NCBI RefSeq assembly: GCF_900110605.1
Contig: NZ_FOFI01000003.1
Location: forward strand, 248,001-312,000
DNA from: Epilithonimonas lactis
Lineage (GTDB): Bacteria > Bacteroidota > Bacteroidia > Flavobacteriales > Weeksellaceae
Reading direction: 5' to 3'
Length of the DNA stretch: 64,000 nt
Below the pieces are notes generated by a model. That model saw only the letters and a program-made list of their open reading frames with translations, was not told where the DNA came from and searched no databases. Both the position numbers and the translations under genes were made by a program. Shown here one piece after another: positions 8,163 through 29,081 of the stretch; within the stretch, counting starts at the first letter, position 1, and every line of letters starts with the position of its first letter.

Positions 8163-8183
8163 ACTTAATTAAATATTATATTT

Positions 8184-9639: not shown

Positions 9640-9965
9640 TATTTTATCGCAAAGGCGCATTTTTTTATATTGATAACGTTAAAAGTCGCTAAGCTGCAAT
9701 CTGTGAAAATCTTCGACTCCGATTAGATTGACATTGGAACAAACTTTTGGCGACAAAGTGATATAAGGAAACCAAATCTGCAGCCCGACTTGAACGGAAA
9801 TCCTTTTTTGCGTGGACTAAAGTTCTATTTAAACTGAGATCGTCTGCAAAAAAGATTGGGAGTGGAAGGCGGAAATAGCTGCCCAAATTTTACCAATTAT
9901 ATAATTTGTGACTTTGTTCCGAAAACATATTTTAAATTTTTAAATTTGCAACACAAAATTCTGAA
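9640..9965. other. 326-base gene-free gap between the MATE gene and argS
   Basis: Holds the hairpin repeat at 9779-9893 and, just before argS, a TAAATTTGCAAC stretch near 9941-9952 that fits a Bacteroidota -7 element (14-24 bases before the argS ATG). I see no small coding frame with good start and composition. Confidence 0.6.
9779..9893. repeat. flavobacterial long intergenic hairpin repeat, copy 2
   Basis: GCAGCCCGACTTGAACGGAA then ATCCTTTTTTGC at 9800-9811 pairs with GCAAAAAAGATT at 9846-9857, followed by GGAGTGGAAGGCGGAAATAGCTGC. Inner arms match at 11 of 12 positions and the outer GCAGC/GCTGC ends also pair. It is the same family as 6735-6873 in the opposite orientation. Confidence 0.65.
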
Positions 9966-11729: not shown

Positions 11730-11776
11730 ATGGCTGATGGCGATTGGTTTTTGGCTTTCAATTCGAAAATAAAATT

Positions 11777-11806
11777 AAAACTCTGCTTCGGTGGAGTTTT
11801 TTTTTG
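11777..11806 (+). terminator. terminator of argS
   Basis: AAAACTC pairs with GAGTTTT around a TTCG-containing loop, followed by a run of T; it may also serve the convergent gene on the minus strand. Confidence 0.6.
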
Positions 11807-14970: not shown

Positions 14971-14982
14971 AAAATTACACAA

Positions 14983-15648
14983 ATGTTCAAAAAAATTTTA
15001 ATTGCAGAAGATTATGAAAGTTTTAATATCTCTGTCCAAAAAGTGGTGGAAGATTTGAAAATATCTCAACCAAAATTTGATAGTTATTGTGACACAGCAT
15101 TTGACCGAATCAAAATGGCACTCCAGGAAAACGCGCCTTTCGAACTACTGATCACAGACCTCTCCTTTGATGCAGATCACAAAAAACAAAAGCTGGAGAC
15201 CGGACAACAGCTCGTGGAAGCCGTGAGAAAGATCCAGCCCGATTTGAAGGTCATTGTATTCTCCGTGGAAAAAAGACAAGAGATCATCGATAAACTCTTC
15301 AATGATCAAAAAATAAATGCCTACGTCAAGAAAGGACGGGAAGATGTCACCGATCTAAAGCGCGCTATAAAATCCGTTTACAACAATGAGAGGTTTATTT
15401 CCTATGACCTAAAAAAACCATCGAAAGACAAAAATGCTTTTGAGTTCTCTACATTCGACACGCAATTGGTTTCCTTACTTGCTAATGGAATGCTGGTAAA
15501 AGAAATCCCTTTGTATCTAAAAGAAAAACAGATCAAACCATCCAGCATGAGCTACATCGAAAAGAAATTAAGCAACATCCGGGAATCACTGGATGTCAAA
15601 AGCAATGAGCAACTGATATCGGTATGTAAGGATTTTGGAATCATATAG
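14983..15648 (+). CDS. NarL/LuxR-like response regulator
   Basis: 221 residues. The receiver domain (1-125) has the acidic pair in LIAEDYE, the phospho-acceptor Asp in LLITDLSF, the Ser switch in VIVFSVEK and the conserved Lys in AYVKKG. The C-terminal output domain (about 150-215) resembles a LuxR/GerE helix-turn-helix (LVSLLANGMLVKEIPLYL, then SYIEKKLSNIRESLDVKSNEQL) but with an extended turn, so DNA contacts are less certain. It follows the TPR kinase by 12 bases in one operon and should be its phosphorylation target. A strong hairpin terminator ends the operon right before the integrated element. Confidence 0.88.
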   Translation: MFKKILIAEDYESFNISVQKVVEDLKISQPKFDSYCDTAFDRIKMALQENAPFELLITDLSFDADHKKQKLETGQQLVEAVRKIQPDLKVIVFSVEKRQEIIDKLFNDQKINAYVKKGREDVTDLKRAIKSVYNNERFISYDLKKPSKDKNAFEFSTFDTQLVSLLANGMLVKEIPLYLKEKQIKPSSMSYIEKKLSNIRESLDVKSNEQLISVCKDFGII

Positions 15649-15716: not shown

Positions 15717-15736
15717 ATTGTAGACCCACAGGGATT
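15717..15736. repeat. left attachment repeat (tRNA-Gln 3'-end copy)
   Basis: Identical over 20 bases to 29007-29026. The copy contains only the last part of the tRNA (T-arm 3' side and acceptor) and diverges right after, where the intact gene continues CGAACC. Confidence 0.85.
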
Positions 15737-15810
15737 TTCACCTACCATTGCTTAAAGCCTCAATAAATATATAAATTGTACATTTTCAATGAATTACTAT
15801 TTTTATTAAT

Positions 15811-15847
15811 TTTATGATATTCAATAAATCTATTTGGATATCATAAA
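15811..15847. promoter_or_regulatory. palindrome upstream of the integrase
   Basis: TTTATGATAT at 15811-15820 and its exact inverted copy ATATCATAAA at 15838-15847 surround 17 bases. Placed between att and integrase, it is a candidate operator or recombination-accessory site. Confidence 0.5.
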
Positions 15848-15851
15848 AAAT

Positions 15852-15871
15852 GGCTGTAATTTTGGCTGTAA
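15852..15871. repeat. left arm-type direct repeats GGCTGTAA
   Basis: Two GGCTGTAA octamers with a 12-base period (15852 and 15864). The same pair, same orientation and period, is at 28958 and 28970 near the right att. Their placement suggests integrase arm-binding sites. They fall in the first codons of an upstream ATG at 15850, a reason to place the integrase start at 15889. Confidence 0.6.
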
Positions 15872-15888
15872 TTTATTTTAATATTGAG

Positions 15889-17193
15889 ATGATAAATATA
15901 AAAAGAAAAATCAACATTGTTTTGGAGAAAAGAAAAAAAGACGGTGTAATAGTTAATCATAATGTTCCGATTTTCTTCCGTGTAACTTTCAATTCAAATA
16001 GAGTGAATCTTTTTACAGGTTTTCGTGTTGATAGAAATAATTGGGACGAGAAATTATCTCAAATTAAGAAAGGTATTTCTAATATTAATGGGGAAACTAT
16101 TGAAGAGATTAACACTAAACTGAGTAATCTTGAGAATGATTTACAGGCTTTTTTCATTAAATGTCAGGTTGAAGATAGAATTCCTGATCTAGATGAATTG
16201 AAAATTAGTTTTGGACAGGTTAAAAATAAAGGCAATACAAAAGAGAAAAAAGCTATCAAAACTGATGAAAAGGAAATGGAAATTGAAACTTTTTTCGATA
16301 CCTTTGATAAATTCACAGATTATTCTGGAAAAGTAAATAATTGGACGATTGATACGTATAAAAAATTTGACGCACTAAAAAATCATTTACTTTCATTCAA
16401 CCCAAATCTTACTTTTGACAATCTCAATTCCGAAGGTCTTCCAAAATTACTTTCTTATTTTTCTAATACGTTGAAGTTAAACAATGTTACAACGAAAAAG
16501 TATTTGAAAAATCTAAAATGGTTTTTGAGATTCGCTGTGAAAAATAATTATTGTGATAATCAATATTTTCAACAGTTTGCACCAAAAATAAAAACGGCGG
16601 ACAAAGTTGTGGTTTTCTTGTCTGAAGAAGAAATTCTTAAAATTAAAAATTTAGAAATCTCTCAAACCAAAAAATATCTCGAAAGAGTACGTGACGTCCT
16701 TCTCTTTACGTGTTTTACAGGATTGAGATATTCCGATGTTCAAAAACTAAAAAAGACAGACATCAAAAATGATAAACTTTATATTGTTACCAAGAAAACG
16801 TCTGATTCCATCACAATTGAGTTAAATGATATTTCCAAAGAAATATTAGAAAAATATTTAGAAATCGAAACAGAAATGGCGTTGCCAGTAATTTCAAATC
16901 AAAAAATTAATGAATATTTAAAAGAGTTGGGACGTTTAGCCGAAATAGATGAACCGATAAATCACACTTACTTTATCGGAAATAGTAGAAAAGATGACAC
17001 CAAACCAAAATTTGAATATTTTTCTTCACATATTGGCAGACGTACATTTATTTGCCTTTGTATTTCAAAAGGAATTCCAATTCACGTCGTTATGAAATGG
17101 ACAGGACATTCGGACTATCAATCGATGAAACCTTATATTGATGTAGTAGATTCCACAAGAGAAGTTCAAATGCAAAAACTTAACATCATATGA
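15889..17193 (+). CDS. tyrosine recombinase / integrase of the element
   Basis: 434 residues from the ATG at 15889; the in-frame ATG at 15850 would add 13 residues over the arm repeats. An N-terminal arm-binding domain (1-75, Arm-DNA-bind type, NVPIFFRVTFNSNRVNLFTGFRVD pattern within 15961-16032) is followed by a core-binding SAM-like domain (about 135-225) and the catalytic domain. Catalytic residues are visible: Arg in CFTGLRYSDV, His and Arg in SSHIGRRTF, His in KWTGHSDY and the nucleophile Tyr in MKPYIDVVD. It should catalyse integration and excision at the tRNA-Gln end. Its stop overlaps the next ATG (ATGA). Confidence 0.92.
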   Translation: MINIKRKINIVLEKRKKDGVIVNHNVPIFFRVTFNSNRVNLFTGFRVDRNNWDEKLSQIKKGISNINGETIEEINTKLSNLENDLQAFFIKCQVEDRIPDLDELKISFGQVKNKGNTKEKKAIKTDEKEMEIETFFDTFDKFTDYSGKVNNWTIDTYKKFDALKNHLLSFNPNLTFDNLNSEGLPKLLSYFSNTLKLNNVTTKKYLKNLKWFLRFAVKNNYCDNQYFQQFAPKIKTADKVVVFLSEEEILKIKNLEISQTKKYLERVRDVLLFTCFTGLRYSDVQKLKKTDIKNDKLYIVTKKTSDSITIELNDISKEILEKYLEIETEMALPVISNQKINEYLKELGRLAEIDEPINHTYFIGNSRKDDTKPKFEYFSSHIGRRTFICLCISKGIPIHVVMKWTGHSDYQSMKPYIDVVDSTREVQMQKLNII

Positions 17194-18143
17194 AAATATC
17201 TGAACACCTTGATACAACACTAAAATTAGAAAAATCACTAAATAATTTAAACAGAGATAATCTATCAAAATCTTTGATTGATAATCTATTTGAATATTCA
17301 AAATCTTTGAACGAAATTGAATTTAGTGAATTATTTGAACACAAAAGACCTGGTTTAATTTACAAAGAATACAAAAATTCCATACAGAGATTGAAATTTC
17401 TTATTCATTATAAAAAGGATGTTTTAGGATTTAATAAAATTTCAAATCTAATAGATAAAGAATCTGCGAAAGAAAAAAGCGAATATGATTTTCACTATAA
17501 GCAATTACGTGAAATTAGTTCAGAAGAAAGAGAACTGAATTCCAAATTAGAAAGTTGGGCTTACAAATATGCCAATGATTCAATTGAAATTAAGCAATTA
17601 AATGATGAATACGAAATAGTTAAGAAAAAATACAACAATGAACAAAATATTAGTTCTTCTTTGTATCAAAAATGGGAATCTAAAAAACGTGGTTTGTCTT
17701 ATCTTTTAAACATTAATCCTATTGAAATTACCAATCAAATTAATGAGATTGAAAATCAACTTTTAAGACTTGATCATTTCGAGAAATATTCCGAAAAATT
17801 GTTGAAAGAAGAAAGATTGGTTTATTTTATCCATAAAATTTTTGTCGAATTAAAATTAATCAAGCATATCGGCTATGTGGAATTTTCTAATCAACTATTA
17901 GAAAGTAAAATAATGACATTGGAAAAAGAGCAAAAAAAAGACAGAAATATCGCTTATGCAATCAATTGCATTGCAAATGAATTTATTTTACCTGAATCAG
18001 CCACTAATTGGAAAAAAGATATGGTAGATTATTTTGAAATAAAAGATTTTGAAAAGAAAATCAATCCTTCTGAAGAAAATAAAAACGAAATTGACAAGGA
18101 AATTGACGACATTATTTCTCTCGCAAAAATGAACTCCTTTTAA
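17190..18143 (+). CDS. hypothetical coiled-coil protein of the element
   Basis: 317 residues, start ATG overlapping the integrase stop by 4 bases, so translationally coupled. It is Lys/Glu/Asn/Ile-rich with long helical stretches at about 95-190 (SEERELNSKLESWAYKY, IEIKQLNDEYEIVKKKY) that look like coiled coil. No signal peptide, membrane segment or catalytic motif is seen. Proteins of unknown function following the integrase are common in such Bacteroidota elements; a role in excision or DNA binding is possible but unsupported. The AT-rich composition matches the integrase. Confidence 0.7.
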   Translation: MKISEHLDTTLKLEKSLNNLNRDNLSKSLIDNLFEYSKSLNEIEFSELFEHKRPGLIYKEYKNSIQRLKFLIHYKKDVLGFNKISNLIDKESAKEKSEYDFHYKQLREISSEERELNSKLESWAYKYANDSIEIKQLNDEYEIVKKKYNNEQNISSSLYQKWESKKRGLSYLLNINPIEITNQINEIENQLLRLDHFEKYSEKLLKEERLVYFIHKIFVELKLIKHIGYVEFSNQLLESKIMTLEKEQKKDRNIAYAINCIANEFILPESATNWKKDMVDYFEIKDFEKKINPSEENKNEIDKEIDDIISLAKMNSF

Positions 18144-18248
18144 TCTCATAAAATTGATTAAAATCAATAAACATTTCAAAAAATCACATTTTGACACACT
18201 TAGAATTTTATAGAATCTCAAAATAGTTTAAAATATTATAATTTATTG

Positions 18249-18282
18249 AAAATCAGCACAAATAATTGTGCTGATTTTTATT
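18249..18282 (+). terminator. terminator of the integrase operon
   Basis: AAAATCAGCACAA pairs perfectly with TTGTGCTGATTTT around a 4-base loop, then TATTTTG. Confidence 0.85.
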
Positions 18283-18339
18283 TTGAATTTTTCTGAATTT
18301 CAAAAACTTCCAAATTTTGTATCAGAAAATTTTAAAACA

Positions 18340-18645
18340 ATGGATACACAAAATTTATTATCAAAGCCTATTTGGCAAATGACGGGGGAGGAATTTTTGA
18401 CACTAACAAAAACAGAAAACCAGAACAAAACAGAAAAGATTCAGTCTGAATCATCAGCGAAAGCAAATCCAAAATTGGTTTATGGTATTCGTGGAATTGC
18501 AAATCTTTTTGATTGTTCTATTGCAACTGCAAATCGAATTAAAAAAAGTGGTGTAATTGATGGGGCAATTTTCCAACGAAACAGAACCATAGTCGTAAAT
18601 GCAGACGAAGCCCTCAAATTATTTAATGACAGTGAGAAAAAATAA
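18340..18645 (+). CDS. DUF3853-type DNA-binding (excisionase-like) protein
   Basis: 101 residues from the ATG at 18340; a longer frame from 18268 begins inside the terminator hairpin and is rejected. The N-terminus (LLSKPIWQMTGEEFLTLT) and the C-terminal winged-helix-like half (YGIRGIANLFDCSIATANRIKKSG, then GAIFQRNRTIVVNADEAL) match the DUF3853 family of Bacteroidota mobile elements. The helix-turn-helix resembles MerR/excisionase folds, so a directionality factor or regulator is plausible. It precedes the VapE-like gene by 47 bases. Confidence 0.8.
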   Translation: MDTQNLLSKPIWQMTGEEFLTLTKTENQNKTEKIQSESSAKANPKLVYGIRGIANLFDCSIATANRIKKSGVIDGAIFQRNRTIVVNADEALKLFNDSEKK

Positions 18646-18692
18646 AACTCAGGTTATTCATTAAAAAAAATCAGGCTGTTAAACTGAAGTAG

Positions 18693-19862
18693 ATGGGAAA
18701 AGCTCAAAAACGGTATCAAACAGAAGCAGGTTCAGTCACGGTCTTTGATAAGGTCATCAAATATCTGAACCAAAAATACAAAGTCCGGTACAATGAAGTT
18801 GCTTTAGAATTTGAAATCCGTACCGAAAATGAAGATTGGGACGAACTCAATATCAATTCCTTGTTTATTGAGTTGATTCAATTTGGGATTAATATCACTT
18901 TGAATAAGTTGGAGATTTTGCTGAAAAGTCATTGGATAGAGAAATACAATCCGATTGAAAATTACTTTAAAAATCTACCAAAATGGAACGGTGAGAATCA
19001 TATTCAAAAGTTAGCAAATTACATCACGACAACCGATAATGCATCGTTTCAAAATCATTTTGAAAAATGGTTAACGAGAGCGGTTTTGTGTTCACTAAAG
19101 AAAGGGTACGTCAACAAACAATGTTTCGTTTTGTTCAATACCAAACAAAATTCTGGAAAGACAAGTTTTTTGAGATTCCTGATTCCAACCGAATTAGAAA
19201 AATATTATACCGAAGATATTGGAATTGATAAAGATGGATTGATTTCTCTTTGTAAATCTTTGATTATCAACATTGATGAACTTTCGGTGATGTCTAAAAT
19301 TGATGTGAATACGCTGAAATCCTTTATTTCCAAAAATACTATTAATGCAAGATTACCTTACGACAGAAAATCGTCATTAATGCACAGAACGGCTTCTTTT
19401 TGTGGTTCCACTAATCGTTCTGATTTTTTAACCGATGAAACAGGAAGTGTGCGTTGGCAAATTTTTGAAGTGTTGGAAATTGATTTCAATTATTCTAAGG
19501 AAATCAATATTAATCAAGTTTGGGCTCAAGCATATTTCAATGCTTTTGAAAGAAAAAACTACAATCCGGAACTCACTGCTGAAGACATTCTGGAAAACGA
19601 GAAACGGAATGAAAAATACAAACAAATCAGTTTGGAGCAGGAAATTATTATCACTCATTTTGAAAAATCTGAAAATAAAAATGAATTCCTCACTGCAACT
19701 GATATTATGTTGGCGATGAATAATGCTTTGGGAGTTCGGTTAAACATTATAAAAATCGGAAAAGCATTAACGGTTTTAAATTATGAACGGATAAAACATT
19801 CCAAAAGACAAGTCTATGGTTATGTAATCAAACGAAAAATCGAAGAATCAAAAAACGAATAG
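18693..19862 (+). CDS. VapE-like P-loop helicase/primase-associated protein
   Basis: 389 residues. A Walker A motif lies in NTKQNSGKTSFLRFL (about residue 150), Walker B-like Ile-Asn-Ile-Asp-Glu (SLIINIDELSVM) and a sensor region CGSTNRSDFLTD follow, as in virulence-associated protein E and phage D5-type superfamily 3 helicases. The C-terminal 90 residues look like a winged helix. In mobile elements such proteins act with a primase to replicate the excised circle. It lies directly left of an iteron-like array and then a primase gene, consistent with a replication module. Confidence 0.85.
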   Translation: MGKAQKRYQTEAGSVTVFDKVIKYLNQKYKVRYNEVALEFEIRTENEDWDELNINSLFIELIQFGINITLNKLEILLKSHWIEKYNPIENYFKNLPKWNGENHIQKLANYITTTDNASFQNHFEKWLTRAVLCSLKKGYVNKQCFVLFNTKQNSGKTSFLRFLIPTELEKYYTEDIGIDKDGLISLCKSLIINIDELSVMSKIDVNTLKSFISKNTINARLPYDRKSSLMHRTASFCGSTNRSDFLTDETGSVRWQIFEVLEIDFNYSKEININQVWAQAYFNAFERKNYNPELTAEDILENEKRNEKYKQISLEQEIIITHFEKSENKNEFLTATDIMLAMNNALGVRLNIIKIGKALTVLNYERIKHSKRQVYGYVIKRKIEESKNE

Positions 19863-19874
19863 TAGCAAATCGAC

Positions 19875-20068
19875 TTACCTCAATTACCAACTTACCTAAA
19901 ATCTTTTAAAACTATTATTAATAAAGGTTTTTCTAATAAGGTAACATTAAAATTTCTTCTTACCTAAGTTACCAATTTATAAACTTTGAAAAGGTAAATA
20001 GGTAGAAAAAGGTAACTGACAAAAATTAACCAAAACTCTTTCTAACAAAGACTTTGGTAGAAAGGTAA
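19875..20068. repeat. iteron-like TTACC/GGTAA array, candidate replication origin
   Basis: Nine copies of TTACC or its complement GGTAA fall in 194 bases: TTACC at 19875, 19884, 19892, 19960 and 19969; GGTAA at 19940, 19993, 20011 and 20064. Two near matches (GGTAG at 20001 and 20056) add to the pattern. Flanks are often CTTACCT/AAGGTAA, giving a longer AAAGGTAA-like unit. Forward copies dominate the left and reverse copies the right. The array lies between helicase and primase genes. Confidence 0.6.
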
Positions 20069-20111
20069 GAAGATTCTGAAAAAACTTACAAAACTTTAAA
20101 ATATTAAAAAA

Positions 20112-20999
20112 ATGAACTGTAAAACCGCAAACGAAAATATTAATATTAGAGAGATTTTGGATAGTTTTTCTCTTTTTCCAAGCAAAGAAAATTTGAAATC
20201 AGCATTTTATTTTGCTTTTGACCGAAAAGAACGGACACCAAGTGTAATCGTCAATTTTGGAAAAAATACAGCTTTCGATTTTGGAACTGGCAAACAATAC
20301 GATAATGTTTCTTTGGTTCAAGCCATTAAAAAGTGTTCGGTTTCTGAAGCATTGGAATATCTGAGACAATTTGAATTTTCAAGTTTTGATAGAAATGACA
20401 ATTCGAAAAATAAACAAAATTCTGATAAAAAGTCAAAAACCAATTATGAGATTTTGGAAATTAAAAATGTAGAACGTTCTTCACTTTTGAGTTATTTAAA
20501 ATCCCGAAATCTGGAAAGTCAAAAATCGGATTTAAAGGAAATTTATTATTTGCTTCATGACAAAAATTACTTCGGACTTGGTTTCAAAAACAATTCAAGC
20601 GGTTACGAAATCCGCAATAAATATTCAAAAATCTGTCTCGGAAAAAAGGATATTTCTACGATTAAAAACGGAAGTGAAACGTTGAGAATTTTTGAAGGAT
20701 TTACGGATTATTTATCATTCAAAATTTTGGAAAAATCACTCGAAAAAGAACCTTCGGATTACCTGATTTTAAATTCGGTTTCTATACTTTTCAAAGCTAA
20801 AACTGAACTTGAAAACCATCAAAAAGTTGAACTCTATTTTGATAATGATGAAGCTGGAAATTTGGCAACCGAACAATTAATCAATCTACATAAAAATATC
20901 ACAGACGAACGTTTGCTCTACAAAAATCACAAAGATTTGAATGCGTTTTTGATGAATAATGAAATTAAAGAAGAACGTCGTCCAAAATATGGCAGATAG
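20112..20999 (+). CDS. toprim-domain primase of the element
   Basis: 295 residues. The N-terminal half (1-95) resembles a CHC2/DnaG-type zinc-binding domain in layout (FDRKERTPSVIVNFGKNTAFDFGTG at 20217-20291) but lacks the full Cys/His set, apart from Cys-3 and a Cys near 77. The C-terminal half is a toprim domain with the Glu in LRIFEGFTDYLSF (about 200) and the acidic motif YFDNDEAGNLATEQL (about 245). Toprim primases of this form accompany VapE-like helicases and relaxases in Bacteroidota mobilizable elements and prime replication of the transferred strand. Start at the ATG after the iteron array. Confidence 0.82.
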   Translation: MNCKTANENINIREILDSFSLFPSKENLKSAFYFAFDRKERTPSVIVNFGKNTAFDFGTGKQYDNVSLVQAIKKCSVSEALEYLRQFEFSSFDRNDNSKNKQNSDKKSKTNYEILEIKNVERSSLLSYLKSRNLESQKSDLKEIYYLLHDKNYFGLGFKNNSSGYEIRNKYSKICLGKKDISTIKNGSETLRIFEGFTDYLSFKILEKSLEKEPSDYLILNSVSILFKAKTELENHQKVELYFDNDEAGNLATEQLINLHKNITDERLLYKNHKDLNAFLMNNEIKEERRPKYGR

Positions 21000-21005
21000 T
21001 GAGTG

Positions 21006-21066
21006 CAAAAAGTACCCAATGTTTACAAAAAGCGTGGACGCTAATTGTAAAATTGGAACTTTTTGG
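21006..21066. other. candidate oriT: nested inverted repeats upstream of mobilization genes
   Basis: An outer imperfect inverted repeat (CAAAAAGTACCCAAT at 21006-21020, ATTGGAACTTTTTGG at 21052-21066) encloses a perfect small palindrome AGCGTGGACGCT at 21031-21042. It lies between the primase and the two mobilization genes, where oriT is normally found in such elements. Confidence 0.45.
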
Positions 21067-21135
21067 TTTTTTCCTATCGTCAAAAACGTCTTGAAAAACA
21101 AACTGAATGTTGATAAATAATAAATACACAAAAAT

Positions 21136-21606
21136 ATGGAGAATGATTTTTTGAAAAGTTTTGTCCTGAAAGTCTCCCGTGAGCAGGAACAAAAAAAAGA
21201 GACGGAAAAAAGGAAACAATACTTCCGTGAACTCGGAAAAAAAGGAGGGCTGAAAAAGAAAAGTGCGAACCATCTTTTACGAGTTGTTTCCGTGCGATTT
21301 ACCGAAAAGGAATTTAAGTTTCTGGAGGACGAAGCTAATAAATACAGTTTGAAAATTTCGACCCTTCTTCGAATGGTAGCAACAAAAGAGGAGTTGAAAG
21401 CTAAGGAATTTGAAACTGATAAAATCCTTTTGGAATATGGCAATAACTTTATCCGAATCACCAACCTTTTGCGAAATTCCGAATGGTCTGCTTTTGAAAA
21501 TAAAAAAAATATCCTGCTGGAAATCGAAACCGTTTTGACATTGATAAAACAATACCTCTATCAAAAGATTCACGAACGGGAGAATCTGATGAATGAAGAA
21601 TTATGA
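21136..21606 (+). CDS. ribbon-helix-helix mobilization protein (MobA/MobC-like)
   Basis: 156 residues. A charged N-terminal helix (VSREQEQKKETEKRKQYFRELGKKGG) leads into an RHH-like DNA-binding core at about 45-90 (LLRVVSVRFTEKEFKFLEDEA, then LLRMVATKEE). The C-terminal third is helical (long Leu/Ile-rich stretch before IHERENLMNEEL). This is the usual small relaxosome accessory protein of Bacteroidota mobilizable elements: it binds oriT and helps the relaxase. Its stop overlaps the relaxase start by 4 bases (ATGA), so both are translated together. It follows the oriT candidate by 69 bases. Confidence 0.8.
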   Translation: MENDFLKSFVLKVSREQEQKKETEKRKQYFRELGKKGGLKKKSANHLLRVVSVRFTEKEFKFLEDEANKYSLKISTLLRMVATKEELKAKEFETDKILLEYGNNFIRITNLLRNSEWSAFENKKNILLEIETVLTLIKQYLYQKIHERENLMNEEL

Positions 21607-22457
21607 ATAATTCGGCAACAACAAGACTGATTTCCAAAATCGCTTTGGAATACAACGGAACTGACAAAGGAACGGCGAAGATGCTTGGAACAAACAATCT
21701 TCTCGGAAGCAGTCCTGAAGAACAATTTTTGGAAATGAAAGCAATAGCAAAAAGAAATTCCAATGTCAAAAAATGGGCTTTGACAGGTTATATCTCACCA
21801 CCAAAAGAAACAGGCGACCAACTTTCTGATGCAGAACTGGCGAAAATCACGATACAGGCTCTTGCAAAAGTCGGAGTTTCGGAAAACAACCAATATCGCT
21901 TGGATGTCCACAATTCTACGAAACAAAAGCATATTCATTTCGTGGTAAACCGGATTGACACTTTTGGAAAATGTACGGTCAAATCCCACAATATCGGGGA
22001 GAATTTCGGTAAGGCTGTAAGGGAAATCTGTAGAGATTTGGGTATAAAGACAGACATCGAAACAGGCATTGATAAAAGAAATGAGATGTATGAGAATCTG
22101 GTTGCCAGTATCGGAAATTCTAAAAATTTTGAAGAGCTGGTTTTGGAAATGTCGAATCGGGGTTATTTGGTTTCATTGTCGAGCAATGTCAAGGTCGGGA
22201 TTTCGGGAATGAGAATCGTTCTTAAAACAGATATCAACGATGAAACCTCACGTCAGTATAAAGCAGGATACAAGCTTTCGGAAATTACTAGCAAGCTGAA
22301 AATATCGGAAATAAAGAAAATCTTTGAAGATAAAACAAAACGCTCGGAACAATTGAAAACATCAAATGATTCGGAATTTCTTAGACAAAATAAACGGAAT
22401 GAGGATTTGAGAAATAATGAAATGAAAATAGAGAACAATAAAAAATTTAAACGTTAA
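21603..22457 (+). CDS. relaxase / mobilization nuclease (MobB-like)
   Basis: 284 residues. The metal-binding three-His motif is visible as His-103 (RLDVHNSTKQ) and the pair in KHIHFVVNRID (about 110 and 112), followed by the family block SHNIGENFGKAVREICRDLG. Motif I normally has a catalytic Tyr near the N-terminus; the candidates are Tyr-17 and Tyr-63, the latter in WALTGYISP. The C-terminal 60 residues are charged helix (KRNEDLRNNEMKIEN). It nicks oriT and pilots the single strand into a recipient cell through a helper conjugation machine. It is short for a MOBP relaxase but typical in such small elements. Confidence 0.82.
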   Translation: MNNSATTRLISKIALEYNGTDKGTAKMLGTNNLLGSSPEEQFLEMKAIAKRNSNVKKWALTGYISPPKETGDQLSDAELAKITIQALAKVGVSENNQYRLDVHNSTKQKHIHFVVNRIDTFGKCTVKSHNIGENFGKAVREICRDLGIKTDIETGIDKRNEMYENLVASIGNSKNFEELVLEMSNRGYLVSLSSNVKVGISGMRIVLKTDINDETSRQYKAGYKLSEITSKLKISEIKKIFEDKTKRSEQLKTSNDSEFLRQNKRNEDLRNNEMKIENNKKFKR

Positions 22458-22462
22458 AAATT

Positions 22463-23026
22463 ATGGACAATACACAAAAAGACGGAATGGAGATTTTGAA
22501 TCAAGTTATAGAATCCTGTAAAGCAAATATTGAATCTAACACAGAAACTAAAGCTTCAGTTGAAGATTATATGAATGTATCTTCAGAACTTGAACAATCT
22601 GTATCGGCTTTGATAAATATAATCGATGAAACATCAAGAACTTATCAAAAAGAAAATGAAATATTTAAGAAAACCGTAAGTCAAATCCCGAAAATAATTA
22701 TTGCGGAATTATCTCAGCAAAGTATTGAAGCTTTACGAAAATCGAATCTTGTTTGGGGTATTTTTGGTGCAATTTTACTGTCATTTTCGACAATTCTAAT
22801 AAGTGGAAATCTTGCATTCAAATGGTATTCCGAAAGTATCCGTTCCAAAAGCGAGCTTAGAGAGGAAATCCTTTCCGAATTTGAAAAGGATGGAAAACTG
22901 CTATATCCTAAAGACGACATTCAAAAATTAGAAAACAACACCGAACTTGTACAAAAATGGATTAATAAAAACCCGAAAGATGCGGAGAAATTCCTGAGAT
23001 TCAAAGATGGTTACGAAGCTAAATAG
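22463..23026 (+). CDS. single-pass membrane protein of the mobilization operon, unknown
   Basis: 187 residues starting 5 bases after the relaxase stop, so in one operon. An N-terminal helical domain (1-90, Glu/Ser/Lys-rich, coiled-coil-like) is followed by one membrane segment at about 96-118 (LVWGIFGAILLSFSTILISGNLAFKWY) and a charged C-terminal domain with KSELREEILSEFEKDGK. Similar small membrane proteins follow relaxase genes in Bacteroidota elements and may link the relaxosome to the membrane. No family could be named. End of the mobile backbone; cargo begins after it. Confidence 0.7.
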   Translation: MDNTQKDGMEILNQVIESCKANIESNTETKASVEDYMNVSSELEQSVSALINIIDETSRTYQKENEIFKKTVSQIPKIIIAELSQQSIEALRKSNLVWGIFGAILLSFSTILISGNLAFKWYSESIRSKSELREEILSEFEKDGKLLYPKDDIQKLENNTELVQKWINKNPKDAEKFLRFKDGYEAK

Positions 23027-23243
23027 GTCTATTGTCTTTATTTTTTTTAAAGTTTGGAAAACAAAATAGTAAGTGGGTTGGAAAATATTAAAAATAAACA
23101 GAACCAAAAGAGTAGATTAAAACGGTAAATATTTGAAAATTTATTCTTAATAGTCTTAAATCATACATAATAATTTATATAAAAATTGCACAATTAAAAA
23201 TTTATTTTAAATTTGCTATAGTCAAATTTTATAAAAAAATATT
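23027..23243. other. AT-rich gap between mobilization operon and cargo
   Basis: 217 bases, extremely AT-rich, holding the promoter of the precursor peptide gene. No other feature seen. Confidence 0.5.
23186..23215 (+). promoter_or_regulatory. complete Bacteroidota promoter of the precursor gene
   Basis: TTG at 23186-23188, a 19-base spacer and TAAATTTG at 23208-23215 match both elements of the Bacteroidota consensus TTG-N19-TAnnTTTG. The ATG follows 28 bases later. It is the clearest promoter in the window. Confidence 0.75.
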
Positions 23244-23447
23244 ATGAATGCAGAAAATTTTACTCAACTAGATCAAGAAGTTGAAAAAAATGAATTATTA
23301 GAAAATTTCCAAATGGAAGAATTGGAACAAAGATTTGAAATGAAGGCTTGGGACGTAAGTGTATCTGCACCTACAATGTTTGATGCTGGTGAAACAATTG
23401 AAACCAATACTACTGCCGTTGGAGGTAGTGCCACTTGGACATTTTAA
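23244..23447 (+). CDS. RiPP-like precursor peptide
   Basis: 67 residues. The first 33 are acidic and helical (NELLENFQMEELEQRFEMKAW around 19-36) without a signal peptide, as in leader peptides that are bound by a modifying or export protein. The last 30 are of different composition, rich in Ser, Thr, Ala, Gly, Val with few charges (SVSAPTMFD, NTTAVGGSATWTF). There is no Cys, so it is not a lanthipeptide, sactipeptide or thiazole-type core; Thr, Ser, Trp, Asp and Glu are the candidate modified residues. It has its own promoter and a perfect stem terminator before the four downstream biosynthesis-type genes, typical of precursor genes that need high expression. No GG leader cleavage motif directly fits; VGGSA near the C-terminus is the only Gly-Gly. 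Confidence 0.7.
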   Translation: MNAENFTQLDQEVEKNELLENFQMEELEQRFEMKAWDVSVSAPTMFDAGETIETNTTAVGGSATWTF

Positions 23448-23452
23448 AAAGT

Positions 23453-23486
23453 AACAGCTAATACAATCTATGTATTAGCTGTTTTT
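23453..23486 (+). terminator. perfect 13-bp stem terminator/attenuator after the precursor
   Basis: AACAGCTAATACA at 23453-23465 pairs fully with TGTATTAGCTGTT at 23471-23483 around ATCTA, then T-rich. Partial read-through would make the downstream enzymes at lower level than the precursor. Confidence 0.85.
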
Positions 23487-23500
23487 ATATTTCAATTTTT

Positions 23501-23794
23501 ATGAGAGTAGTTTTTTTTACAACAATTTTGTTGATATCCTCACAAATTAACGCACAGTTACTTCCAAAGTATACTGATTCTCTTAAATATAAAAAAGATA
23601 CTGCAATATTAGGATTAAGCAACAAAAAAGAAATAGTAATAGATTTTAAAAAACCACAAAAAAAGAGTGGTTTTAATTTTTCTCTTGGAAAAGAAAAAGA
23701 AGTTATTTACAGAGATAATTTTACAAATCGGATTTATTTTCAAAATGGATTTGATAGAACATTAATATATCAAAGAGATAATACAACTAAATGA
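23501..23794 (+). CDS. small secreted protein of the cargo operon
   Basis: 97 residues. Signal peptide 1-18 (VVFFTTILLISSQINAQ). The mature part is Lys/Asp/Phe-rich with no Cys and no recognised domain (LGLSNKKEIVIDFKKPQKK, then GKEKEVIYRDNFTNRIY). Its stop overlaps the next start by 4 bases. An immunity factor, chaperone or partner of the next exported protein are all possible; nothing in the sequence decides between them. Confidence 0.7.
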   Translation: MRVVFFTTILLISSQINAQLLPKYTDSLKYKKDTAILGLSNKKEIVIDFKKPQKKSGFNFSLGKEKEVIYRDNFTNRIYFQNGFDRTLIYQRDNTTK

Positions 23795-24939
23795 AGTCCA
23801 TATTATTTTTAATAGCCTATTTGGGGTTATCATTACAATTTTATTTTCCTCAAAATATCAAAGTAAGAATTATTGATTCTGAAGAAAACAAACCTCTTCA
23901 AAATGTTAGAATTATGTCTGATAATGTGGTGCTGTATAGTAACGATGATGGGGAAGTAGAACTAAAAAATGATAAGAAACCACTGAATATTTTTGCTCAA
24001 GGATATGAAGAGTTAACATTGGAGTCTTTAACTCCTATTATAAAATTAAAGCCATTATATAAAGATATTGAAGAGGTGAAAATATCCAAAATAGATATAA
24101 GGCAAATGTTTCAAAATGCTTTAAAAGATTATCTAAGCATATATTACAGTAAGCCCTCTCTATATCAATCTACAATAAAGCAAAAAGGTTATATTGATGG
24201 GAAAATGATTAACCTTTTAATAGCCAATATTGACATATGGGCTTTAGCAAATGCCTATAATTTTAAGGCACAAGATAATGTCGACTCTTTTGTCCAAATC
24301 GGCTTTAACAACATTAAATATTTTAAAACTAAAGTATCTTCTAATGATTATCCCTTTAATACAGATATTCAAATAACTCCCAAAAACTTTATTCAGAAGT
24401 TATTTTTTAATAGTGAAATTATTGGTTTTTTAAATGATACAAAAAATAGTGTATTTGTTTCAAAAATACTTTCAGAAAACCAGAACATTCAAATTATTTA
24501 TTTTGAAACAAAAGATGAAATAAATACATATAAAGGAAAATTTACATATAGCAAAACAGACAAAGTCATTAGTAGTTTTGATCTTTATATAACAAATATG
24601 TCTCAGTCGTTCAAGAACAAGAACAAACGAGGAGAAGCTTACGAAGGTGTAGCCACTTCAAATAATATCAAATATGATTTTTATAAAAAAGACGGAAAAT
24701 ATCTACCAGCTTTAGTTTATACCGAAATTAAAGGTTATGCGCTATACAAAGAAAAAAAGTATCCCGTTTCATTTATTCAAGAAATAAATTTTCAAAAATT
24801 TTTAGAATCAGATAAAAAAGGATTGAAAAATAAAATTGATTTAAATAAAAATCTAACCGAAAATATTGCTAATAAAGAGATTAAAGAAAATAATACTTTA
24901 CTTTCCAAAGAAGAACAGAAATTTATTGATGAGCCATAA
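23791..24939 (+). CDS. secreted protein with carboxypeptidase-regulatory-like domain
   Basis: 382 residues. Signal peptide about 1-20 (SILFLIAYLGLSLQFYFPQ). Residues 22-95 look like the small beta-sandwich of the carboxypeptidase D regulatory-like/CarbopepD_reg-2 family (VRIIDSEENKPLQNVRI, YSNDDGEVELKN, LNIFAQGYEELTL), commonly found at the N-terminus of TonB-linked outer-membrane proteins. The remaining 290 residues look beta-rich and end in a charged helix. It may sit in the periplasm or outer membrane. Overlaps the terpene-type gene by 11 bases. Related to DUF5686-like proteins in architecture, but this is only a resemblance. Confidence 0.72.
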   Translation: MKSILFLIAYLGLSLQFYFPQNIKVRIIDSEENKPLQNVRIMSDNVVLYSNDDGEVELKNDKKPLNIFAQGYEELTLESLTPIIKLKPLYKDIEEVKISKIDIRQMFQNALKDYLSIYYSKPSLYQSTIKQKGYIDGKMINLLIANIDIWALANAYNFKAQDNVDSFVQIGFNNIKYFKTKVSSNDYPFNTDIQITPKNFIQKLFFNSEIIGFLNDTKNSVFVSKILSENQNIQIIYFETKDEINTYKGKFTYSKTDKVISSFDLYITNMSQSFKNKNKRGEAYEGVATSNNIKYDFYKKDGKYLPALVYTEIKGYALYKEKKYPVSFIQEINFQKFLESDKKGLKNKIDLNKNLTENIANKEIKENNTLLSKEEQKFIDEP

Positions 24940-26788
24940 AAAGAAATCTCCAGAATTTTACGAATATTATCCTAAACTATTTCACGATTATTTTCCAGAT
25001 ATAGATAAGGTGACAATAGACCTGCTTTCAAAAGCAGGCTTTTATTTTTATCAATCTATTTTGCAATTAGATGCTGTTATTGATAATCAAGAAAATCATA
25101 GAATATTTAATGTTTTAGATTTACAAGAGAATGCAATAAAAATTTTATCCACAATATATGAAGATGGTAACAATTTTTGGAATCTTTGGGAAACAAGAAA
25201 AAGAGAGTTTCGCAAGGCAATATCATTAGAAAAAAACCTTTGGAATAATCCAAGTGAAGAGAATTATAATAAAGTTGCAGATATGAAATCTGCCTTTGGA
25301 AAAGTAGCTATTGATAGTTTATTTATTTTTTCAGAAAATAGTAACAATAGCGAAATTTATAATTTACTGCTCGAATCTCATAAATATTTTTCGATAGGGT
25401 TTCAATTATATGATGATATTATAGATTTCACAGAGGACTTTAACAAAAAACAATTTAATTGGGCGGTATATGAATTATCCAAAACATTAGACTTTTCCAA
25501 ATATAAATATGATGTAAATATTTTAAATAAGTTGTTTTATATAGATGGAACAAGTGTTATTCTTTTTGAAAAATCAATTTATTATTTGGAGAAGGCTAAA
25601 AAAGTAATTGAAAAATTGCCACCGGATAGTTTGTGGCTGGATACAATCTGCGACTTTGAAAAAACAATTCTTCAAACCAAGGATTCAGTTAATGGTTATG
25701 TCAAAACAATAGAAGAAAAAGCAAATACAAAAAGAAAATTAATTCAAGAAGATTACTTTTTTGATTTTAATAAAGTCACAATAGACTTTTTTTTTAAAGG
25801 CTTGCAATTCATTAAGAGTGATTTTCTTCAAAATTATGTTGATTTAAAGCATTTTATGTATTTAGGAGGTATGGAAGGATTCGAGAATGAAATTGATATC
25901 CATTCTTCAGATACTTTTCAAAGAGCATTATTGAATGATTGTTTGTTGGAAATTGCACATTCTTTTAATCTTAATCTTCAAGTTTTTATTGAAAAAGAAA
26001 ATCAATATATAGAAGGAAGACAAAATAAGGACAATATTGGAGCTTGGTCTTATTTTCCAACTGTTCAGGAAATAGCAGCAGATATTGACGATCTAGGGCA
26101 AATTATGCAACAGTTTATCAAAACAGGAAATGGGAAATTGGTAGATAAATATTGTATAAAAGCAATTAGTATTGCCGTATCTGAAAGAACACAGCCTAGT
26201 GGTGGAATAGAAACTTGGATTCTTCCTAAAGTAAATCTTACTGAAAAACAGAAAAAACAGGATTTATTCAATTCTACCAAATGGGGAAAAGGGGCAGATG
26301 TGGAAGTTGTAGCCAACTTTGTATATGCTTTAACCTTATTAGATTCAGAAAAATACAAGTCCACCATAGAAAAAGCAATCAAGTATATTATTTCAGAGCA
26401 AAAAGAGCAAGGGTATTGGGAGAGCAGATGGTACTATGGTAAACTTTATGGTACATATGTTTGTCTGAGGTTGCTTAATGAGTTTCCTACACAATATGGA
26501 GCTGTCAAGCAGAAAATAAAAGACTTTTTGATTGGTTTCCAAAATGCTGATGGAAGTTTTGATGAGAATCAATATAAAAATTTGTCAACTTCTTTTGCTA
26601 TTTTTTGCATGAATTTATTAGAGTTTCCTGAACTTGAGAAAATGAAAAATAGCGCACAACAATTTTTAATAGAACATCAGCATGAAAATGGTAGTTGGAA
26701 GGCGGAAAATTTTATTAAACCTAAAGCCCATGAGCCTTACAAAAGTAAGACGCTTACTACTGCTTACGCATTAAAGGCTTTACTATAA
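24929..26788 (+). CDS. two-domain terpene synthase-like enzyme (class I fold plus DxDD/QW class II fold)
   Basis: 619 residues from the ATG at 24929; an ATG at 24866 would overlap the previous gene by 74 bases. Residues 1-270 resemble an all-helical class I isoprenoid synthase: LQLDAVIDNQENHR (Asp-48, Asp-52; the usual second Asp is Ala) and a classic second aspartate motif QLYDDIIDFTED (Asp-162, 163, 166). Residues 280-619 resemble a class II cyclase/prenyltransferase alpha-barrel: the DxDD acid motif in EIAADIDDLGQ (Asp-385, 387, 388), preceded by GAWSYFPTV, and three QW-type repeats (QKEQGYW 491, QNADGSF 538, QHENGSW 584). The order class I then class II in one chain is unusual for bacteria. 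No signal peptide, so cytosolic. Substrate could be a prenyl diphosphate or a prenylated peptide; not proven. Confidence 0.7.
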   Translation: MSHKKKSPEFYEYYPKLFHDYFPDIDKVTIDLLSKAGFYFYQSILQLDAVIDNQENHRIFNVLDLQENAIKILSTIYEDGNNFWNLWETRKREFRKAISLEKNLWNNPSEENYNKVADMKSAFGKVAIDSLFIFSENSNNSEIYNLLLESHKYFSIGFQLYDDIIDFTEDFNKKQFNWAVYELSKTLDFSKYKYDVNILNKLFYIDGTSVILFEKSIYYLEKAKKVIEKLPPDSLWLDTICDFEKTILQTKDSVNGYVKTIEEKANTKRKLIQEDYFFDFNKVTIDFFFKGLQFIKSDFLQNYVDLKHFMYLGGMEGFENEIDIHSSDTFQRALLNDCLLEIAHSFNLNLQVFIEKENQYIEGRQNKDNIGAWSYFPTVQEIAADIDDLGQIMQQFIKTGNGKLVDKYCIKAISIAVSERTQPSGGIETWILPKVNLTEKQKKQDLFNSTKWGKGADVEVVANFVYALTLLDSEKYKSTIEKAIKYIISEQKEQGYWESRWYYGKLYGTYVCLRLLNEFPTQYGAVKQKIKDFLIGFQNADGSFDENQYKNLSTSFAIFCMNLLEFPELEKMKNSAQQFLIEHQHENGSWKAENFIKPKAHEPYKSKTLTTAYALKALL

Positions 26789-27963
26789 TGGAGGAAAGCC
26801 CTGTATATAAACTATCATCAGATATTGAATTTTCAAAATTCAATGAAAGTGAATATTTACTGCATAATGTAAAACTTAATAAATATACTAAACTGAATCA
26901 GAAATACTATGATTTATTAAGTTTAGCAGATGGGAGCAGAACAGTATCACAAATTAATATGGATTTTCAAAAAAGCCATAAAGTACCTATTTCAGATTCA
27001 CAAATTATATTGCTTTTTGGTCAGCTAAAACAGTATGGAACTTTTGGTCACGATGATTCAATAAAAGAACAATCAAAAATTCCGGACTATATAAAATATG
27101 GTTTCATTTTTCTTAAACCAGAAGTAATTTCAACAATAGTTCCCTTCTTGAAACTATTGTTTGTCAGGAAAGTTTTTTATTCGGTTATTTTTTTTTCAAT
27201 CATTATTTTTGGATATAGTATTTATACAAATTATTATAATAATCCGACTCTCAACTCTAATACTTTTGTGCCATATTTTATATTGCTACTTTTTATAAGT
27301 ACTATTTTTCATGAGCTGGGACATGCAAGTGCATCCCATTTTTTCAAGGCAAGACATGGAGGAATTGGCTTTGGTTTTTACTTGTATTTCATACCAGCAT
27401 TTTTTGCAGACGTGACGGATATATGGAGATTAAGTAAGTGGAAAAGAATTATAGTAAATAGTGCAGGTATTTATTTTGAAATTATTTTTTGCTTATTACT
27501 ATTAATTATTGGTTTTTTTATAAAATATCATATACTGGAAATTTTGGCATTGGCTATTTCAGTAAAAGCATTATACAATCTAATCCCATTTTTGCGAGCT
27601 GATGGATATTGGATATTGTCAGACTTGTTGAACAAGCCTAATCTTAATTTCCATGCCATGAACAACTTAAAATTGATTCTATTATCTACTTTTAAAAATG
27701 AAAAGTCTATACTAACGAAAAAGGATTATCTTATTGCTTTATATGGGGGCTTTAACATTGTAATGATAGCTCTGTTTTTCTATTATCAAATATTTTTAAA
27801 TTGGTATTCAATTATAAATTTTCCCATAACAATTTATAAAATAGTTATCTCAATCTTTCAATGGAAGTTTAATTTAAGCTTTAATGAATTATTCAAACTA
27901 TTATCAGTCTTAATTTTTTACATTATAAGTGTCAAGATAATTTTAGGAATAATGAAGAGATAA
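26788..27963 (+). CDS. PqqD-like domain fused to M50 membrane metalloprotease
   Basis: 391 residues; its ATG overlaps the terpene-type stop by one base (TAATG). Residues 15-85 have the pattern of a PqqD-like RiPP recognition element (LHNVKLNKYTKLNQKYYDLL, then DGSRTVSQI and ILLFGQLKQYG). A membrane part of about six helices follows, with the zinc motif HELGH at 175-179 and the third-ligand block NLIPFLRADGYW with Asp-272, as in peptide zinc metalloproteases. The protein should bind a leader peptide on the cytosolic side and cleave it in or at the inner membrane. It is the last gene of the operon. Codon use is very AT-rich like its neighbours. Confidence 0.82.
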   Translation: MEESPVYKLSSDIEFSKFNESEYLLHNVKLNKYTKLNQKYYDLLSLADGSRTVSQINMDFQKSHKVPISDSQIILLFGQLKQYGTFGHDDSIKEQSKIPDYIKYGFIFLKPEVISTIVPFLKLLFVRKVFYSVIFFSIIIFGYSIYTNYYNNPTLNSNTFVPYFILLLFISTIFHELGHASASHFFKARHGGIGFGFYLYFIPAFFADVTDIWRLSKWKRIIVNSAGIYFEIIFCLLLLIIGFFIKYHILEILALAISVKALYNLIPFLRADGYWILSDLLNKPNLNFHAMNNLKLILLSTFKNEKSILTKKDYLIALYGGFNIVMIALFFYYQIFLNWYSIINFPITIYKIVISIFQWKFNLSFNELFKLLSVLIFYIISVKIILGIMKR

Positions 27964-28046
27964 TTATTGTTTTTCAAACACACTAAATAATTGCACAATT
28001 TAAAGTTATAGAATTGACTTTTAAAATGAAATTTCATATAGAAAAA

Positions 28047-28066
28047 TTAGCACCTAAATTAGCACC
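28047..28066. repeat. TTAGCACC direct repeats, relic of another element end
   Basis: Two TTAGCACC octamers with a 12-base period (28047 and 28059), the same period as the GGCTGTAA pairs of the tRNA-Gln element. They lie beside a tRNA-Ser end relic, as arm sites would. Confidence 0.45.
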
Positions 28067-28074
28067 CGAAAATT

Positions 28075-28111
28075 AAAAAGCCTATAAACACGTTGTTTAT
28101 AGGCTTTTTTT
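28075..28111 (-). terminator. terminator (tRNA-Ser relic and cargo operon)
   Basis: AAAAAGCCTATAAACA and its inverse TGTTTATAGGCTTTTTTT form a perfect bidirectional stem. On the minus strand it directly follows the tRNA-Ser end relic; on the plus strand it may end the cargo operon. Confidence 0.75.
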
Positions 28112-28126
28112 GCGGAGAGTGAGGGA
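28112..28126 (-). pseudogene. 15-base relic of a tRNA-Ser 3' end
   Basis: The minus strand reads TCCCTCACTCTCCGC, which fits the T-stem end, acceptor and discriminator of a tRNA-Ser (5' side GGAGAGT). The rest of the tRNA is absent; the sequence switches at once into a broken ABC transporter gene. This is what an abandoned attachment site leaves. Short length makes it tentative. Confidence 0.4.
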
Positions 28127-28769
28127 AAGTAACTGCCTTAGTAGGAGCTTCCGGAAGTTGTAAACCACCATAATGAAATTGCTTCTTAAATTTTACAAAC
28201 CTGTTAAGGGAAGTATCTTTTACAACTATGATGATTTAGAGATCATCTCACCGAAAAGTTTGAGAGAGAATTGTGGCGTAGTGATGCAGGACGGGTATAT
28301 TTTTTCGGATACTATCGAAAGAAATATTGCAACAGGAGATGAAGAAATTAATAGGGAAAGATTACAAAATGCTACAAAAATAGCCAATATAGAAGGATTC
28401 ATCGACAGTATTCCTTTAGGATATAACACCAAAATCGGAGCATCAGGAAATGGAATTTCAGGAGGACAAAAACAACGTATTCTGATTGCACGTGCCGTTT
28501 ATAAAAATCCACATTACATCTTTTTTGATGAAGCAACTTCGGCATTGGATGCGGAAAACGAAAAGACAATTCATGACAACTTACAATCGTTCTTTAAAGG
28601 AAAAACAGTCCTGATTATAGCACATCGCCTTTCAACTGTAAAAAAAGCCGACCAAATCATTGTTCTAAAAAATGGACAAATTGTAGAACAGGGAAATCAT
28701 CAACAATTGACAGCAAATAAAGGTGAATATTATAATCTTGTAAAAAATCAATTGGAATTAGGAAGCTGA
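28123..28769 (+). pseudogene. broken C-terminal half of a peptide-export ABC transporter
   Basis: Only the nucleotide-binding domain remains. It opens inside the strand before Walker A (GKVTALVGASGS at 28123-28158), but the P-loop Gly codon is TGT (Cys) and one A is missing in the AAACC that follows, shifting the frame before TTIMKLLLKF. The rest is intact: Q-loop VVMQDGYIFS, signature ISGGQKQRILIARA, Walker B YIFFDEATSALD and switch IIAHRLS. The pattern fits exporters of the peptidase-C39/bacteriocin type; the protease and membrane parts are lost. The frame from the ATG at 28173 could make 198 residues, but it lacks Walker A and cannot hydrolyse ATP. Confidence 0.85.
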
Positions 28770-28857
28770 ATAAACTGTCTTGATTTTATAATTATGGCGT
28801 CTTGATTCATAAATCAATACAAAATAAGGGCTAAATCATTTTAGAAGAAGAAATAAA

Positions 28858-28892
28858 TCAAAACCCTGTAAGTTAAAACTCACGGGGTTTTT
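28858..28892. terminator. hairpin after the ABC remnant
   Basis: AAAACCCTGT and ACGGGGTTTTT flank an AGTTAAAACTC centre; imperfect stem with T run on the plus strand and A-rich left arm. Confidence 0.5.
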
Positions 28893-28937
28893 AATTATGT
28901 TTCCTAAAATATCTTGAAATATCAAAAAAATAAAAAA

Positions 28938-28977
28938 GCCAATTTTACATTGCTTTTGGCTGTAAAATTGGCTGTAA
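28938..28977. repeat. right arm-type repeats of the element
   Basis: GGCTGTAA at 28958 and 28970 (12-base period) matches the left-end pair at 15852/15864. In addition GCCAATTTTACA at 28938-28949 is an exact inverted copy of TGTAAAATTGGC at 28961-28972. Distance to the att repeat is about 30 bases. Confidence 0.6.
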
Positions 28978-29006
28978 TTAATTTAAATCACTGATTATCA
29001 AGTGAT

Positions 29007-29026
29007 ATTGTAGACCCACAGGGATT
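29007..29026. repeat. right attachment repeat (in tRNA-Gln)
   Basis: ATTGTAGACCCACAGGGATT, identical to 15717-15736; 16 of the 20 bases are the tRNA-Gln 3' end. Confidence 0.85.
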
Positions 29027-29081
29027 CGAACCCCAGATGACTGCACCAAAAACAGTAGTGTTACCGCTACACCATAGGTCT
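29011..29081 (-). tRNA. tRNA-Gln (anticodon UUG)
   Basis: 71 bases on the minus strand. The acceptor AGACCTA pairs with TGGGTCT plus discriminator A; D stem GTGT/ACAC; anticodon stem ACTGT/GCAGT with loop TTTTGGT, so anticodon TTG; T arm TGGGG-TTCGAAT-CCCTG. The CCA is not encoded. The 3' end is the integration site of the mobile element and stays functional after insertion. Confidence 0.92.

Follow-up and report, generated by a model that had tools for sequence, protein, structure and literature searches.

Background

Two fused prenyltransferase-cyclase enzymes that modify peptide tryptophan, ChrPC and NctPC, have been described (Hubrich et al. 2024, Chem 10:3224, as cited in PMC13290415). 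In the accessible part of the citing review (PMC13290415), the P domain of ChrPC resembles trans-isoprenyl-diphosphate synthases (trans-IDS) and acts on an internal tryptophan with C10-C20 donors, its C domain cyclising the prenyl group, and NctPC is said to combine an ABBA-type P domain with a C domain that resembles MstE. Peptide tryptophan is also prenylated by an enzyme of the isoprenoid-synthase fold in the ComQ/ComX and PalQ/PalX systems (excerpted text of PMC10853753 and PMC13290415), and the protease of the daptides (MpaP/DapP) is a site-2 protease fused to a RiPP recognition element (RRE), RiPPs being ribosomally synthesised and post-translationally modified peptides (PMC10036551, likewise in excerpt). 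Here we analyse a five-gene operon in a 64,000-nucleotide stretch of the Epilithonimonas lactis genome (contig NZ_FOFI01000003.1, positions 248,001 to 312,000; hereafter the window), and consider it highly likely that it makes a peptide in which Trp36 is prenylated, the chain is cyclised in place, and the leader is then cut by an RRE-bearing M50 protease. The gene set with its conserved leader and motifs, the predicted folds, the co-occurrence, the near-invariance of the tryptophan and the setting in a mobile element, all reported below, are results of computational tools.

The precursor peptide and its tryptophan

The precursor gene (23244-23447, on the plus strand, as are all five genes of the operon) encodes 67 residues that match no Pfam or NCBIfam family. 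We place its leader at approximately residues 1-33, the core probably beginning near residue 34 and ending in Phe. Within the leader, the conserved motif FQMEELEQRFE (residues 22-32; 23307-23339, plus strand) is the sole strict match in the window, and shortly after it stands the conserved core residue Trp36 (codon at 23349-23351, plus strand), the predicted site of prenylation. A sequence-only reading that preceded this analysis had singled out the 67-residue gene as encoding a Thr/Ser-rich leader/core-type peptide. The gene stands, the compositional feature does not: what is conserved in the core across homologues is the tryptophan adjoining the leader.

A regular expression for the leader alone, whose pattern includes no tryptophan but which was composed after peptides had been seen, matched 56 different peptides across 119 loci (the count is of distinct sequences and not of independent events, and several of these loci overlap or repeat one genome). 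In 55 of the 56 a tryptophan follows the leader by 2-9 residues, in 49 by 2 or 3, and the exception (from G149) has its tryptophan 19 residues after the leader; the same search of all loci in five codon-shuffled versions found no match. With a hidden Markov model (HMM) of the leader only, 63 distinct precursors, again distinct sequences rather than independent events, were recovered from enzyme-bearing loci, the window's peptide being one of them. Tryptophan occurs within 12 residues of the leader end in 62/63 and anywhere in 63/63, against a background of 845/6063 random 12-mers. The same model has a match in 41 of 46 enzyme-bearing loci (a set that includes copies of the mobile element described below and further genomes), in 37 of which the match had not previously been counted. 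The loci without one comprise two on contigs that start just before or within the enzyme (L014, L042), L022, the broken L030, and L111, whose tryptophan-less peptide was detected by the full-length precursor profile only. At the other extreme, L020 carries six precursors in one locus.

The fused prenyltransferase-cyclase

The fourth gene (24929-26788, plus strand) encodes a 619-aa fused prenyltransferase-cyclase of ChrPC type by architecture. Close homologues begin at the residue matching the ATG at 24929; an alternative TTG start 21 codons upstream would give 640 aa. Both halves of the class I plus class II terpene-like enzyme that had been proposed from the sequence were recovered, as a P domain of trans-IDS fold (residues 2-248; 24932-25672, plus strand) and an MstE-like class II terpene cyclase C domain with DIDD at residues 385-388 (residues 282-619; 25772-26785, plus strand). 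The full protein reaches the cut-off of no NCBIfam model and has no match among 50,697 phage records. In the P domain the first Asp motif is reduced to D48xxxD52, the second (Q159..D162D163..D166) is retained, and the motifs of the isopentenyl diphosphate (IPP) site, present in the host's two trans-prenyl synthases, are absent. The printed motif strings show the second Asp motif with its upstream Gln, together with the class II DxD(D/S), in 36/36 aligned enzymes, and at residues 385-388 these fall into two subtypes, DxDD (21 enzymes) and DxDS (15).

We consider it extremely unlikely that the peptide itself, and not an isoprenoid, is the substrate of the class II toroid domain (in ring formation, for example). 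In favour of this reading is a weak Pfam match (17.9 bits, cut-off 22) to the alpha-macroglobulin TED domain, which is itself an alpha-alpha toroid.

Clusters lacking one or both enzyme domains

A natural series of clusters, with both domains, with P only, or with neither, points to the domain that accompanies tryptophan. On two Hymenobacter plasmids, enzymes of 303 and 309 aa match the P part only (profile positions 10-242; E 9.6e-28 and 8.9e-31), and nothing within 8 kb matches the cyclase at E <= 0.01; both clusters hold the protease and a short leader-like peptide with tryptophan (that of L142 being recognised by eye only). Three protease loci without a P domain carry radical SAM/SPASM (L106, L107) or YcaO (L110) enzymes, and their precursor-like peptides, which match the precursor profile weakly (L106, L107) or were recognised by eye (L110), have tryptophan within 12 residues of the leader in 0/6 cases and anywhere in 1/6. 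Pooled, any tryptophan is found in 65/66 peptides with a P domain versus 1/6 without (Fisher 2.5e-6, relatedness ignored). One locus speaks against tryptophan as the general target: L111 (G320, 627-6439) combines a 316-aa P-like enzyme and the protease with a Cys-rich precursor that has no tryptophan. Its enzyme may modify another residue, or L111 may be misassigned.

These clusters bear directly on whether the enzyme makes a free terpenoid, by class I and then class II chemistry on a diphosphate, with the peptide as a separate product or a travelling regulator. In its favour, catalytic aspartates are kept in both terpene domains, and PDB titles show class II cyclases of this fold acting on free substrates. 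However, the P domain has lost the IPP-site motifs seen in the host's real synthases, a near-invariant tryptophan lies by the leader beside the enzyme and none lies there beside the same protease without a P domain, and cyclase-less relatives retain the tryptophan peptide. On the IPP-site motifs and the tryptophan pattern we reject a free terpenoid pathway as very unlikely. The sequence-only reading had offered two outcomes, a peptide matured by the protease and carrying an isoprenoid-derived group, or a small molecule acting with the peptide; the isoprenoid group and a protease with a leader-binding domain are supported, and the free small molecule is disfavoured because the tryptophan is conserved.

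A further possibility is that Trp36 is prenylated and the C domain is inactive or structural, giving a linear prenyl-tryptophan peptide like ComX. The existence of P-only clusters indicates that prenylation alone can suffice, and DxDS replaces DxDD in 15/36 aligned enzymes. In the enzyme of the window, however, DIDD is intact and the MstE-like domain complete, and ChrPC is reported to cyclise in the available text of PMC13290415, and we regard a linear product here as very unlikely. A Trp36 that is prenylated, with the chain then cyclised, is the product that we favour.

Several variant clusters deserve mention in their own right. The three sibling precursor-like peptides of L107 (G113, 5224-5819) differ in that the third reads CCSWTD and the others CCSFTD, this being a distant tryptophan. 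In L110 (G154, 6994-11785) a SagD-type YcaO and a protease of the RRE-M50 family stand beside two Cys-rich precursor-like peptides that are nearly identical, and L012 has a C39-peptidase ABC exporter with a HlyD-type adaptor. Eight clusters (L019, L023, L024, L025, L045, L112, L113, L114) combine prenyltransferase-cyclase and radical SAM enzymes, and L112 also has a P450.

The protease and the exported proteins

The last gene (26788-27963, plus strand) encodes a 391-aa DapP/MpaP-like protein, an RRE (PqqD-like, residues 5-89) fused to an M50 site-2 protease. Structure prediction gives the N-terminal domain an RRE winged-helix, PqqD-like fold, agreeing with the PqqD-M50 fusion that had been read from the sequence, and not the non-PqqD fold that would have spoken against it. 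The protease motifs (HELGH at 175-179, DG at 272-273) lie in a transmembrane fold. No NCBIfam model is reached above cut-off, the daptide protease model NF041824 scoring 116.7 bits versus 300 required. The identical protease sequence is found on 104 contigs. A longer form of the RRE-M50 protease, of about 690 aa, is encoded at L018, L034 and L038 and has a MauE-like membrane domain behind the protease.

Between precursor and enzyme lie two genes whose products appear by eye to be exported. The 97-aa protein (23501-23794, plus strand) has a signal-peptide-like N-terminus, belongs to no Pfam or NCBIfam family, and is matched, among the 39 loci L007-L045, solely in four copies of the element. The 382-aa protein (23791-24939, plus strand), which recurs beside the enzyme, is assigned to the carboxypeptidase-regulatory-like (CarbopepD_reg_2) family: it matches no Pfam or NCBIfam family itself, its homologue at L026 reaches the CarbopepD_reg_2 Pfam cut-off, and an exported protein of this kind lies in or adjoins the cluster in at least 22/36 loci.

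Conservation of the gene set

Scanning genome contigs for enzyme loci yielded 39. Four of them (L007-L010) carry one and the same element, that of the window, and count as a single locus, which leaves 36 distinct loci. By BLAST clustering an M50 gene is present in 32 of these 36; the others are on short contigs (L028, 4.0 kb; L033, 3.0 kb), have an M50 fragment (L022) or have a broken enzyme (L030). Under a stricter profile search 40 of the 46 enzyme-bearing loci have the protease, those that fall short being the same four, L029 and L109. In a phylum sample of 395 genomes the enzyme profile was matched in 27 at E <= 1e-3, ten of them at E <= 1e-24; the remaining 17 have the cyclase region only (16 genomes) or the prenyltransferase region only (G265). 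All ten strong-enzyme genomes carry the protease (E <= 1e-45), adjoining the enzyme in nine and on another contig in G109. At that threshold the protease occurs in 12/395 genomes and 13 places, nine beside the enzyme and four without it (G475:C102, G109:C9, G113, G154), and at G109:C9 (L108) no precursor was recognised. At ten further places the matches are weaker (E 1e-24 to 1e-31) and the M50 proteins longer, in open frames of 519-831 aa; one leader scan among these (L119) returned no match. A class-level genome sample has the protease at E <= 1e-20 in 4/395 genomes. Enzyme, protease and short peptide had been suggested as a set whose co-occurrence would be informative, and homologues are indeed found together with a conserved neighbouring peptide gene, not mostly apart.

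Proposed maturation and its implications

These results support a conserved RiPP-like module whose protease carries a leader-binding RRE/PqqD domain, and the peptide very probably bears an isoprenoid-derived group. The reaction on tryptophan, its order, the chain length, the cut site and the biological role are what we infer from them, as follows. The P domain of the 619-aa enzyme would transfer a prenyl chain to Trp36, from a diphosphate probably supplied by the host's own two trans-prenyl synthases, and the C domain would protonate and cyclise the chain while it is peptide-bound, as in ChrPC-type chemistry. Through its RRE the M50 protein would bind the leader motif FxVEELExRxE, and its intramembrane site-2 protease domain would then cut the leader at the membrane, releasing a terpene-bearing core into the periplasm. 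A role for the two exported proteins after release, possibly in self-protection or export, is the weakest step of the scheme.

More broadly, we give about even chances to a modular RiPP platform in Bacteroidota, in which one leader (FxVEELExRxE) and one RRE-site-2-protease family serve exchangeable tailoring enzymes and move between species as integrative-element cargo. The tailoring set would then comprise prenyltransferase-cyclases (cyclic terpene-tryptophan), cyclase-less prenyltransferases (linear), radical SAM/SPASM and YcaO enzymes, and combinations, for instance of a prenyltransferase-cyclase with radical SAM and P450. If this platform is real, the combined radical SAM and prenyltransferase-cyclase clusters would make doubly modified terpene RiPPs, a possible class of product of which the literature searched yielded no example. 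Polycyclic-terpene peptides are among the newest RiPP products, their chemistry having been first reported only recently; the leader, RRE-protease and tryptophan-keyed precursors offer a search handle for further members, and leader removal in this class becomes directly testable. Core arrays (up to six variable cores per locus, as at L020) and transfer by integrative elements suggest roles in competition or signalling.

Operon layout and mobile-element context

All five genes lie at the positions given by the sequence-only reading, whose overlaps of 4, 11 and 1 bases between consecutive genes from the 97-aa gene onward were confirmed, and the expression signals that it had described around the precursor also recur in our analysis. 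Upstream, a promoter-like site (TTG N19 TAnnTTTG; 23186-23215, plus strand) matches the Bacteroidota-type promoter consensus; since the loose pattern (spacer 19-23) has 17 occurrences in the window, counting both strands, this match is no more than suggestive. Between precursor and downstream genes, folding identifies a hairpin followed by a U run (23453-23483, plus strand; -16.3 kcal/mol, z -5.9, with 0/200 shuffles folding equally well), as expected of the attenuator-type terminator that had been claimed.

The operon is carried by a 13.3-kb integrative mobilisable element (15717-29026) bounded by 20-bp direct repeats (15717-15736 and 29007-29026), the right copy lying in the 3' end of a tRNA-Gln gene (29010-29081, minus strand). 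The element encodes a tyrosine integrase (15850-17193, plus strand; PF00589, PF13102, PF17293), mobilisation proteins (NikA-like and MobA/VirD2 relaxase; 21136-22457, plus strand), VapE-like and primase-like proteins and, behind the operon, a truncated 198-aa ABC-transporter (exporter) ATPase fragment without a membrane part (28173-28769, plus strand). This fragment is the sole transporter gene noticed within the element, and the DNA of its region is about 65-74% alike in many relatives searched. Chryseobacterium ureilyticum shares segment 15718-29117 at 99.87% identity and Epilithonimonas tenax shares segment 15674-28608 at 99.84%, and records of E. bovis and C. mucoviscidosis contain parts of the element. 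Among 98 genomes searched, long near-identical stretches occur in three besides G000 (G003, G005, G007), of which G005 and G007, judging from agreeing coordinates, are probably the assemblies behind the E. bovis and E. tenax records. Two copies are broken: in that of C. mucoviscidosis (L010, 1-11098) there is an insertion ahead of the precursor and the enzyme gene is interrupted by a gene for an IS481-like transposase, and in G003 (L004/L006) the enzyme is split across two frames. Nothing close to the operon DNA (23186-28100) was found among 72,556 plasmid records; the protease is matched by tblastn in seven plasmid records, two of which are the Hymenobacter clusters, with at least 95% of the protease length. 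Just left of the element (13315-15648) are genes for a TPR protein bearing an ATPase domain of histidine-kinase type and for a 221-aa protein that matches no Pfam family; nothing indicates that they are part of the operon.

Comparison with known systems

The sequence-only reading knew of no described family with this gene set, a view that is not supported, given the published accounts, as far as their available text goes, of ChrPC and NctPC (PMC13290415) and of the RRE-fused site-2 protease of daptides (PMC10036551). For an RRE-M50 protease together with a prenyltransferase-cyclase, we found no paper in the open-access literature searched, which is not evidence of the combination being unpublished.

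In the excerpts available, the protease resembles MpaP/DapP in being an RRE-fused site-2 protease, the leader segment here reading EELExRxEM, and differs in its NF041824 score (116.7 bits versus 300) and in a core without terminal Thr. Pfam and NCBIfam detect none of the daptide aminotransferase, oxidative decarboxylase or methyltransferase families among the operon genes. Daptide membership is therefore rejected, on the unreached protease cut-off, the tailoring genes absent from the operon and a core that ends in Phe. ComQ/ComX and PalQ/PalX, in the accessible parts of their sources, share the isoprenoid-synthase fold and a peptide tryptophan target, but ComQ and PalQ stand alone without a cyclase, PalQ favours a C-terminal tryptophan (PMC10853753, PMC13290415), and the second Asp motif present in our enzyme is reportedly absent from ComQ. 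No kinase or regulator family (comP/comA) was detected by Pfam or NCBIfam among the five operon genes, and membership of ComQXPA is rejected on this ground and on the fused cyclase and second Asp motif.

MstE (PDB 6sbb and others), a monodomain class II terpene cyclase, has the same fold as the C domain, but it is unfused, does not act on a peptide, and was solved with free geranylgeranyl dihydroxybenzoate (PDB titles). NctPC, as far as the available text describes it, differs in its ABBA-type P domain from the trans-IDS-like domain found here. ChrPC, on the same partial text, likewise joins a trans-IDS-like P domain to a terpene-cyclase C domain, and the peptide substrate, internal tryptophan and prenylation followed by cyclisation reported for it match what we propose here. 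The window offers a corresponding trans-IDS-like P domain fused to an MstE-like class II cyclase, beside a precursor with an internal tryptophan, and the operon is consequently best classed by its architecture, ChrPC being compared by description only, with the ChrPC type, its protease being of DapP type.

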